Below, piece after piece: positions 9,543 to 13,374 of a DNA stretch of 64,000 nt. The notes under the pieces are model-generated. The model was not told where the DNA came from. It searched no databases and saw nothing but the letters and a program-made list of their open reading frames with translations. This stretch comes from an uncultured Tateyamaria sp. (GTDB taxonomy: Bacteria > Pseudomonadota > Alphaproteobacteria > Rhodobacterales > Rhodobacteraceae), in assembly GCF_947503465.1 (NCBI RefSeq), contig NZ_CANNDN010000001.1, positions 1,178,001 through 1,242,000 of the forward strand, read 5' to 3'. Position 1 is the first letter of the stretch; each line of letters opens with the position of its first letter. The position numbers were made by a program, and so were the translations under genes.

Positions 9543-10238
9543 ATGAAGAAGATTTACGGCTCTGCCGCTGATGCGCTGGACGGACTATTGTTTGATGGCA
9601 TGTTCATCGCCGCCGGAGGATTTGGACTGTGTGGCATCCCCGAACTGCTGCTGGATGCGATCAAGGACGCAGGCACCAAGGACCTGACATTTGCGTCCAA
9701 CAATGCGGGCGTTGACGATTTTGGCATCGGCATCCTGCTGCAGACGCGTCAGGTGAAAAAGATGATCTCGTCCTATGTCGGTGAAAACGCGGAATTCATG
9801 CGCCAGTACCTGTCCGGAGAGTTGGAACTGGAATTCAACCCGCAAGGGACACTTGCCGAACGGATGCGCGCCGGCGGCTGTGGCATCCCGGGGTTTTACA
9901 CAAAGACCGGCGTCGGCACCGTGATCGCGGACGGCAAGGAACATAAAGACTTCGGTGGCGAAACCTACATCATGGAAGAGGGCATCTTTGCCGACCTGTC
10001 GATCGTGAAGGCGTGGAAGGCGGACGAGACCGGAAATCTGGTGTTCCGCAAAACGGCGCGCAATTTCAACCCACCCGCTGCGATGTGTGGTAAGGTGTGC
10101 GTGGCCGAGGTGGAAGAGATCGTGCCAACAGGGAGCCTCGACCCCGATCACATTCATCTGCCGGGCATCTATGTCCACCGCTTGATCCAGGGCGAACATG
10201 AAAAGCGCATCGAACAACGGACAACGCGCGCCGCGTAA
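9543..10238 (+). CDS. scoA: 3-oxoacid CoA-transferase subunit A
   Basis: A 231-residue subunit A of a family I CoA-transferase. With subunit B it moves CoA from succinyl-CoA to acetoacetate, allowing ketone-body or polyhydroxybutyrate carbon to enter the TCA cycle. The signature [17 protein letters not shown] is at the N-terminus, and GAGGFY-type family stretches ([16 protein letters not shown]) follow. The start MKKIYGSA was preferred over an ATG 15 codons upstream because the family begins there. Unusually, subunit B is not adjacent: a LOV sensor gene lies between the two. Which 3-oxoacid is used is inferred from overall similarity. Confidence 0.93.
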
Positions 10239-10249
10239 GGAACCAGGCC

Positions 10250-11278
10250 ATGCCTGACACCATCGAAGAACTGCTACGGGACGACAAATCCTTTGAAGGG
10301 TTTTCCCGGTCCCAGGTCGCCATGATCGTGACCAACCCGCATCTTGAGGACAATCCGATTGTCTATGTGAACCAGGCATTCACCCGGTCCACAGGCTATG
10401 CCCGGTCATCTTCGATCGGGCGCAACTGCCGGTTTTTGCAGGGCGAAGCCACGCGCAAGGCGGACGTGGACAAGCTCCGCGCCGGGATCGAGGCCGAGGA
10501 AAGCGTGACGGTCGATATCCTGAACTACCGCGCCAATGGTGAGCCGTTCACCAACCGCCTGATCGTCGCGCCGGTGCATGACGACAAGGGACAGACGCAA
10601 TACTTTGTCGGCATCCAGAAAGAACTGCGCCAAAATGAACTGTCGACCAGCGTCGAAGAAATCAACGCGCAACTGATCGAGATCCAGAACCGCGTGGCGT
10701 CCGACCTGTCGATGATCATCGGCATGATCCGCCAGCAATCCGGCGCCACGTCCGTTCCCGAGGATTTCGCGGCCCTGAGCCGCCGAATCGAAACGCTGCA
10801 ACTGCTGTACGAAGAAATGAAGCTGAGCGATCAGCAGTCGAACCGCGATAGCATCCAGATGGGCAGCTACCTGTCCCGTCTGTCCGCCGCCATCGCCCAT
10901 ATCGAAGGGCGTTCGGGCATCCGCGTATCCTTGCAGATCGAAGCGCTTGAAGTGCCGATTGAAACAGCAACCCGTGTCGGTCTTGTGCTGTCGGAATTGT
11001 TGACCAACGCCTTCCAACACGCCTTCGATCGGATCGATATGGGCCTTGTCGAAGTGCGCATGAGCCGCCTGAGCGCCGGTGGCTTGCGCCTGACCGTGTC
11101 TGATGACGGTGTGGGCATCCCCAACGACATGGAGTGGCCGGACACCAAGACAGTTGGCGGAAGAATCGTTTCGGGCCTGATCGAGGGCCTGGAAGGTACG
11201 ATTCATCTGGGCCGTGGCGCGGCCGGCAGCTTTATTACCATTGATGTGCCCGCGGGCGCAGCCCTCACCGACGAATAA
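10250..11278 (+). CDS. LOV-domain histidine kinase-like protein without phosphoacceptor His
   Basis: A 342-residue soluble protein. Residues 15-125 form a LOV-type PAS domain with the flavin-adduct motif GRNCRFLQG (Cys60), so blue-light sensing is likely. Residues 140-190 align with the HisKA_2 dimerisation helix, but the family HRVKNNL reads NRVASDL (Asn147 in place of His), and the second-helix His is Tyr187. The C-terminal ATPase domain keeps the N box (SELLTNAFQHAF) and G1 box (DDGVGI). It may signal by ATP-dependent shape change or partner binding rather than by normal autophosphorylation. AAGGA precedes the start, 11 bases after scoA, and scoB follows after 9 bases. Confidence 0.87.
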   Translation: MPDTIEELLRDDKSFEGFSRSQVAMIVTNPHLEDNPIVYVNQAFTRSTGYARSSSIGRNCRFLQGEATRKADVDKLRAGIEAEESVTVDILNYRANGEPFTNRLIVAPVHDDKGQTQYFVGIQKELRQNELSTSVEEINAQLIEIQNRVASDLSMIIGMIRQQSGATSVPEDFAALSRRIETLQLLYEEMKLSDQQSNRDSIQMGSYLSRLSAAIAHIEGRSGIRVSLQIEALEVPIETATRVGLVLSELLTNAFQHAFDRIDMGLVEVRMSRLSAGGLRLTVSDDGVGIPNDMEWPDTKTVGGRIVSGLIEGLEGTIHLGRGAAGSFITIDVPAGAALTDE

Positions 11279-11287
11279 GGACAATCG

Positions 11288-11914
11288 ATGCCCTGGGATC
11301 GCAACCAAATGGCGGCGCGCGCCGCACAGGAACTTGAAGACGGCTGGTATGTGAACCTCGGGATCGGGATTCCGACGCTGGTGTCGAACTATATCCCAGA
11401 GGGGATCGAGGTTACCCTGCAATCCGAGAACGGGATGCTGGGCATGGGCCCCTTCCCCGTCGAGGGTGAAGAGGATGCGGACCTGATCAACGCGGGCAAG
11501 CAGACCATCACCGAACTGCCCCAGACAGCCTATTTCGACAGCGCCCAAAGCTTTGGCATGATCCGCGGCGGCAAGATCGCGATGGCGATCCTTGGCGCCA
11601 TGGAAGTGGCCGAAAACGGTGACCTCGCCAACTGGATGATCCCGGGCAAGCTGGTCAAGGGCATGGGCGGCGCGATGGACCTTGTTGCGGGCGTGGGCCG
11701 CGTGGTGGTGGTCATGGACCACACCAACAAGCATGGCGACAGCAAAGTGCTTAAGGAATGCACCCTGCCCCTGACCGGCAAGGGCGTTGTCGACAGGATC
11801 ATCACCAATCTCGGTGTTCTCGATGTTGTCGAGGGCGGGCTTGAGATTGTCGAAATGGCCGATGGCGTGACCGAAGACGAACTGCGCGCCGCCACGCAAG
11901 CCACCCTTGTCTGA
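11288..11914 (+). CDS. scoB: 3-oxoacid CoA-transferase subunit B
   Basis: A 208-residue subunit B of the same CoA-transferase as scoA. The catalytic glutamate is in [10 protein letters not shown] (about residues 45-54), and [10 protein letters not shown] is the family N-terminal signature. AAGGAC precedes the start. It is 9 bases after the LOV gene and its last 8 bases overlap the start of the acetyltransferase gene, so all four genes are probably one transcript. Confidence 0.94.
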
Positions 11915-12197
11915 TGTCGACATCCGGCGGGAAGAAGGTGACACCAAGGGGCGTTACGTTCTGACCCGGAACGGGGTCGAGGCGGAACTGACCTATTCCA
12001 TCCTGTCGCCCCAGACCCGCATCGCGGACCACACCGGCGTGCCCGACACATTGCGCGGCACCGGTGCGGGCCAGGCGCTGGTCAAACGTCTTGTGGACGA
12101 CGCGCGTGCCGAAGGATGGAAAATCGTGCCGCTTTGCCCCTTTGTGAATGCGCAGCGGGCCATGCATCCCGATTGGGCAGATGCGTTCAACGTCTGA
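11907..12197 (+). CDS. Small GNAT-like N-acetyltransferase (YjdJ type)
   Basis: A 96-residue single-domain protein of the short Gcn5-related group. The acetyl-CoA pyrophosphate loop is [12 protein letters not shown], followed by a helix and the PLCPFVNAQ strand typical of these mini-GNATs. It starts inside the end of scoB. The acyl acceptor is unknown; the link to CoA metabolism is only by position. It converges on the lytic transglycosylase gene with a 9-base gap. Confidence 0.85.
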
Positions 12198-13007: not shown

Positions 13008-13374
13008 GAAACTGCTCTCGGTTGCGCCCGCTCTCCGGCAGGCATTGCCTAATATTCGCAAAAACTGGCGTTTCAGGCCAGCCCAGGACGGCGAAAAATG
13101 GCGATGCTGCCACATTTGCACCGGTGTTTAACGAAAATTACACGAATTCACATGGTCGCCCGACATGTAATTCAATGAAAACAGCAGCTTAAGAATTTTC
13201 CGCAAAAAAATCTGACCCAGACGTGAAATCCTCAATATGCCGCCAAATTCGTGCCCCAATCCCCCGACTATATAGCGTCATACCAAGTCGGACACGGGCC
13301 AATGAGAGAGAGCGGCCCACCAAGGACGGCGAGGTTGAAACGCAAATCTACTGATCCTTTGGAGGGACACTATC
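13008..13374. other. Long intergenic region upstream of the tad locus
   Basis: A 367-bp gap between divergent genes, less GC-rich than its flanks. It should hold the promoters of the transglycosylase gene and of the first pilin. An imperfect inverted repeat (GAATTcACATG / CATGTAATTC, 13144-13173) and a TATATAG stretch near 13270 are visible. I could not define a promoter with confidence. Confidence 0.5.

Follow-up and report, generated by a model that had tools for sequence, protein, structure and literature searches.

Introduction

LdaP (Dshi_1135) of Dinoroseobacter shibae is a LOV protein that undergoes a photocycle, does not autophosphorylate and binds the photosynthesis repressor PpsR, for which it acts as an antirepressor, mainly in the dark (PMC10890935). 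The published ldaP mutant is a transposon mutant; it is colourless and is complemented in trans, and LdaP is required for pigmentation (PMC10890935). In the LdaP pull-down 260 proteins co-eluted, of which 15 were reported as enriched, PpsR among them and no CoA-transferase subunit; proteins beyond these 15 are not named in section 12 of the article, and no cognate response regulator was found (PMC10890935). PpsR was represented by 7 peptides in white light, 7 in blue light and 1 in the dark, and the dark preference of LdaP for PpsR is drawn from a blot and from the tenfold lower amount of bait in the dark (PMC10890935). At the position equated with the phosphoacceptor His142 of EL346, a LOV histidine kinase of Erythrobacter litoralis (PDB 4R3A), LdaP carries Arg148 (PMC10890935).

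Blue-light control of PpsR is also exerted by AppA, the BLUF antirepressor of Cereibacter sphaeroides (PMC10890935). AppA differs from LdaP-type proteins in its photosensor, which is a BLUF domain with FAD instead of a LOV domain with FMN. The part of PMC12654162 considered here mentions LdaP for D. shibae alone. In the main text of PMC10890935 neither "transferase" (as the start of a word) nor Dshi_1134 or Dshi_1136 occurs, and none of the open-licence titles and abstract openings listed by our search links a LOV protein to a CoA-transferase operon.

Results

The window, a stretch of 64,000 nucleotides from an uncultured Tateyamaria sp., contains a LOV gene of 342 codons between the two subunit genes of a CoA-transferase, with gaps of 11 bases on the scoA side and 9 bases on the scoB side and all three genes on the + strand; the open reading frames bear out this arrangement, which a first-pass annotation had described. 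scoA (9543..10238, + strand; PF01144 and TIGR02429) encodes the 231-aa subunit A of a 3-oxoacid CoA-transferase, with 9498 as a possible alternative start in the open frame, the LOV gene occupies 10250..11278 (+ strand), and scoB (11288..11914, + strand; TIGR02428) encodes the 208-aa subunit B. Both subunit genes are complete, lie on the same strand and score above the curated cut-offs (ScoA 231.6 against 128.5 bits for TIGR02429; ScoB 329.8 against 243.6 bits for TIGR02428). As read from the sequence, a TAAGGA overlaps the stop codon of the previous gene upstream of both the LOV gene and scoB. Between 9000 and 12400 a terminator scan gave 7 sites, with 3.0 expected and all 7 on the - strand, while a promoter scan gave 1 site, within scoB, with 0.9 expected. 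Because the gaps are tight and the + strand has no terminator-like site, scoA, the LOV gene and scoB probably form a single mRNA, as had been proposed. A GNAT-like gene of 96 aa with a TTG start (11907..12197, + strand; PF14542) overlaps the end of scoB and is probably the last member of the operon. The GNAT-like gene still adjoins the LOV gene in L034 and L127, loci without sco.

The LOV protein is an LdaP-like pseudo-histidine kinase with PAS_9, HisKA_2 and HATPase_c matches, and its closest solved structure is 4r3a (residues 16-336, E 2.9e-88). The adduct cysteine Cys60 (codon 10427..10429, + strand) is intact in the motif GRNCRFLQG, in agreement with the earlier reading, and C60, N92, N102 and Q123, which we take to be the residues lining the FMN pocket, are all present. 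The label "kinase-like" calls for one correction: the GHKL ATP-binding domain (10943..11251, + strand; PF02518/PF13581) retains the N box (Asn253) and the G1 and G2 boxes of HisKA_2/HWE blue-light-activated kinases, whereas in the alignments the phosphoacceptor His of related kinases is replaced by Asn147 (codon 10688..10690, + strand). This residue lies in a degenerate dimerisation/phosphotransfer region (residues 144-217; 10679..10900, + strand; PF07568 match). With the NCBIfam model for blue-light-activated histidine kinases (NF052306) the protein scores 166.4 bits, below the cut-off of 450.

The architecture, LOV-DHp-CA, is that of EL346 over the aligned residues 16-336, but EL346 has its phosphoacceptor His where the window's protein has Asn. 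The likeness to LdaP includes the domain order, the adduct Cys motif, the missing phosphoacceptor His, the position between scoA and scoB and the presence of PpsR in the genome. We recognised the D. shibae gene among our loci as L007 of genome G035, which lies between scoA and scoB and encodes 338 aa with GRNCRFLQ from residue 58, Cys61 and Arg148. L007 is LdaP, as judged from the 100% identity of a G035 stretch to the D. shibae DFL 12 plasmid NC_009955.1 and from these features, which are as printed for Dshi_1135. The two proteins differ in length (342 against 338 aa), are 57% identical, and have Asn and Arg, respectively, at the His position. The genomic setting differs as well, pufM and ppsR being carried on an 83-kb plasmid-like contig in the window's genome and on a 3.8-Mb contig in D. 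shibae.

A search of 394 genomes of the family for the LOV protein gave matches at E<=1e-55 in 39, and in 27 of these 39 (27 of the 394) the gene lies between scoA and scoB. Named organisms with this arrangement include Aestuariivita boseongensis, Roseivivax marinus, Pseudooceanicola marinus and Allgaiera indica. In a fragmented genome of 690 contigs (G159) the LOV gene follows a scoA truncated where the contig ends; the 1.5 kb downstream contain no scoB, which is present on another contig. The G159 locus, L017, is counted as linked, with scoA alone seen beside the LOV gene. Both gaps are at most 60 bases in 44 of the 54 complete linked loci (18 of the 44 being from the window's own genus).

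Within the genus, one unbroken match spans scoA, the LOV gene and scoB in 18 of 20 genomes, and the two exceptions, G240 and G399, have scoA and scoB adjacent. In G399 the LOV gene is on a different contig from scoA-scoB. G240 bears a deletion scar, a 24-residue remnant just before scoB that is 62.5% identical to residues 318-341, with E 1e-5 when the G240 locus was searched on its own. The unbroken congeners together with this remnant rule out a recent local insertion of the LOV gene into adjacent scoA-scoB, the outcome that would have spoken against the first-pass annotation. A single insertion is not proven, since the linked state needs at least 5 changes on the starred branches of the tree.

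The median dN/dS among 18 genomes of the genus, with dS near saturation, is 0.083 for the LOV gene, 0.020 for ScoA and 0.024 for ScoB; the LOV gene is under purifying selection in the genus, yet it evolves faster than its neighbours. Across 36 linked loci the LOV and scoAB distances are correlated (r 0.48, with 0 of 999 permutations as high), but we draw no functional link from this correlation, for which vertical descent alone suffices.

The missing His is not confined to the genus. Among 29 His-lost rows, a set that leaves out 13 further rows from the own genus and L056, position 147 is N in 13, S in 6, D in 5, R in 2 and A, G and E in 1 each. Such differing residues had led us to suspect many independent His losses, each with a gain of PpsR; the tree needs one change, or two with L056. 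In a quick tree of 66 rows with the H-box columns excluded, a single branch (SH-aLRT 84) has all His-lost rows on the same side. This tree left out 14 rows (L056, 11 genus rows, L051 and L020), and an earlier count of changes on the tree had dropped 9 duplicate loci. L056, from a Hellea MAG, sits on a very long branch and has Asn in place of the His; when it is kept, two His changes are needed. Judged by their sequences, the His-less proteins are thus one clade, this one divergent row apart. The clade is recognisable in alignments by the absent His together with Asp152 (codon 10703..10705, + strand), which is D in 27 of the 29 His-lost rows and H in all 37 His-bearing rows; that these 37 rows all have His at position 147 follows from how they were defined, and it was not counted as evidence.

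We considered whether the gene could be a decaying relic, a kinase drifting out of function within a housekeeping operon. Positions 147, 150 and 151 do vary within the clade, and single lineages have gone further: L163 has also lost its N-box and G2 residues, and G240 has deleted the gene. But none of the 29 His-lost rows departs from C60, Q123 or the G1 residues D285, G287 and G289, Asp152 has been newly fixed in 27, the dN/dS within the genus is low, and LdaP, of the same clade, is needed for pigmentation (PMC10890935). The ATP-site residues are likewise kept in nearly every row (N253 in 28, G287 in 29 and G303 in 28 of 29). Decay is therefore a very improbable account of the gene. As a separate observation, the L163 protein (G230), which is sco-linked and has lost the His but kept the Cys, may have given up ATP binding.

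The PpsR profile TIGR02040 was run on a sample of 198 genomes, one per genus, and found PpsR in 85: in all 8 genomes with a His-lost protein against 77 of the other 190. PpsR is also present in 20 of 20 genomes of the own genus. Outside the genus, 22 of 23 His-lost rows come with PpsR; for sco-linked rows that keep the His the figure is 4 of 16. Including 6 genus rows turns the His-lost count into 28 of 29. The sole His-lost exception, G264, is a 77% complete genome and has pufM, whereas G413 has PpsR and gave no match for pufM, so that every genome examined from the His-less clade has one or the other. The 12 sco-linked His-bearing genomes that have no PpsR match gave no match for pufM either.

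All 28 genomes in which every LOV relative found bears the His have PhyR. Among the 31 genomes with a His-lost protein, 22 have PhyR and 9 gave no match at E<=1e-30; of these 9, G264 is 77% complete and G413 is a MAG. Because the tree traces the loss of the His to a single event, the PpsR and PhyR counts are not independent; the Fisher values for His loss against PpsR are, through shared descent, not real probabilities, and an independent-pairs test found one pair only and hence had no power.

These counts also bear on the proposal that the LOV protein is a pseudokinase of the general stress response, binding ATP and modulating a paralogous kinase or PhyR without phosphotransfer. The retained ATP site would suit such a role, as would the PhyR found in 22 of the 31 His-lost genomes and a His-bearing LOV kinase paralogue in the same genome (L002; G000:C2:517266-518291), which is 44% identical to the window's protein and lies near phyR. 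This paralogue has kept its His, is near another HisKA_2 kinase and has no sco match in its locus, unlike the sco-linked, His-less protein of the window. However, a PhyR match is missing in 9 of 31 His-lost genomes and in none of the 28 others, and the LdaP pull-down gave no cognate response regulator (PMC10890935). We hold a stress-response pseudokinase to be unlikely.

In the window's genome PpsR (C6:41076-42401) and pufM (C6:5108-6019) are on the 83-kb contig C6, and the LOV gene is on C1, a 2.5-Mb contig that we take to be the chromosome. Over 58% of a 20-kb stretch, C6 matches a bch- and ParB-carrying plasmid of Tateyamaria omphalii at 86% identity, and photosynthesis clusters on such replicons have been described in Tateyamaria (PMC6739100). 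The PpsR consensus TGT-N12-ACA was found 11 times in the window, with 8.6 expected, and nowhere upstream of scoA, the first match being at 13125; the missing site speaks against control of the sco-ldaP operon by PpsR. The LOV gene is dispensable for phototrophy, since G240, of the own genus, has PpsR and pufM and no LOV match at E<=1e-55, and for 77 PpsR genomes in the sample of 198 the matches examined include no His-lost one.

In the 198-genome sample, 6 of the 8 His-lost genomes have a BLUF match, each in a frame of 140-181 aa, and 2 have none; six genomes outside these 8 (G051, G062, G080, G083, G091 and G118) have a BLUF match in a frame longer than 390 aa. A replacement of AppA by LdaP is not concluded from these numbers, 6 genomes with a long-frame BLUF and 8 His-lost genomes being too few. 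One LOV-kinase relative, L020, reads GRNWRFLLG, with Trp replacing the adduct Cys; it comes from G062, one of the genomes with a long-frame BLUF domain.

The scoA-scoB gap holds other genes as well. Among the matches listed (177 and 180 of 198 genomes matched, with 23 of the listed scoA rows lacking a scoB partner on their contig and strand), there are at least 127 scoA-scoB pairs in at least 123 genomes, with 99 gaps of at most 100 bases, 7 of 245-328 and 21 of more than 500. Of the last, 11 have the size of the LOV gene, and the 10 other large inserts (L134-L143), again among the matches listed, hold a GSCFA (PF08885) gene in 8 cases and a GH9 cellulase in 2; 7 of the 8 GSCFA inserts also contain a companion resembling the 268-aa one of G187. 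The unrelated cargo thus spans 10 other genera among these matches, and the gap looks like a tolerant slot and a recurrent cargo site. One of the seven gaps of 245-328 bases, in G052 (L146), seems by eye to contain a small ORF.

Position and function of the LOV gene can be separated. In G187 a GSCFA pair occupies the scoA-scoB gap, some 104 kb from the LOV gene, and in Roseobacter sp. MH60115 (G414) the LOV gene adjoins the GNAT gene while scoA is located elsewhere in the genome; with G399, these are members of the His-less clade away from sco. This weighs on the suggestion that the LOV protein regulates the expression or activity of the CoA-transferase and so couples light to the use of acetoacetate or polyhydroxybutyrate. 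The conserved position and tight spacing would fit such a coupling, and 12 of the 16 His-bearing rows linked to sco are from genomes in which neither PpsR nor pufM was matched, so that PpsR does not explain the location. Against it stand the clade members that survive away from sco, the unrelated genes in the same gap, the absence of the usual phosphoacceptor, and the absence of any CoA-transferase subunit from the 15 LdaP-enriched proteins (PMC10890935). We regard this coupling as improbable.

Discussion

We suggest, with fair assurance, that the LOV gene is an orthologue of ldaP whose product would act as a PpsR antirepressor independently of phosphorylation, and that it sits within a tolerant scoA-scoB slot. 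From its motif and its homologues, the protein would bind FMN, and Cys60 would form the adduct in blue light. It has no phosphoacceptor His, and by analogy with LdaP, autophosphorylation at the usual site is probably lacking too. If the protein behaves as LdaP does in D. shibae, it would bind PpsR in the dark and derepress the photosynthesis genes, and in blue light PpsR would repress them. With the sensor on C1 and PpsR and pufM on C6, this action would reach across replicons. At 57% identity to LdaP, the protein could have acquired a different target.

In this ldaP reading scoA and scoB are probably co-transcribed hosts, in whose slot genes of this LOV family may have arrived early and mostly remained. 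The data can be explained without a role in CoA-transferase activity. The first-pass annotation had tied light sensing to ketone-body or polyhydroxybutyrate use, and we find this part of it unsupported: LdaP, in the same position, acts on PpsR and photosynthesis genes (PMC10890935), and both the clade members away from sco and the unrelated genes in the gap speak against it. The search of related genomes that it had proposed does show the arrangement to be conserved, at the frequencies given above for the family and the genus.

How such a protein arose can be sketched more tentatively. A His-bearing LOV kinase of the PhyR stress response, already in the sco slot, might have lost its phosphoacceptor once and been rewired as a PpsR antirepressor in the ancestor of a phototrophic clade within the Roseobacter group; the slot would then have been kept even with the targets on another replicon, expression would be driven by the scoAB operon, and the dose may follow carbon metabolism. 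We think this history conceivable, though somewhat less probable than its negation. An exchange of PhyR for PpsR as partner is attractive and agrees with the counts, which do not prove it.

LdaP has been known from one species, D. shibae, and the comparison presented here gives a clade and a genomic address by which LdaP may be found elsewhere. We point out that an insertion mutation in ldaP may have polar effects on scoB. In conclusion, the locus offers a candidate route from a phosphorelay to antirepression by protein-protein contact, with extant His-bearing and His-less versions in the same slot.
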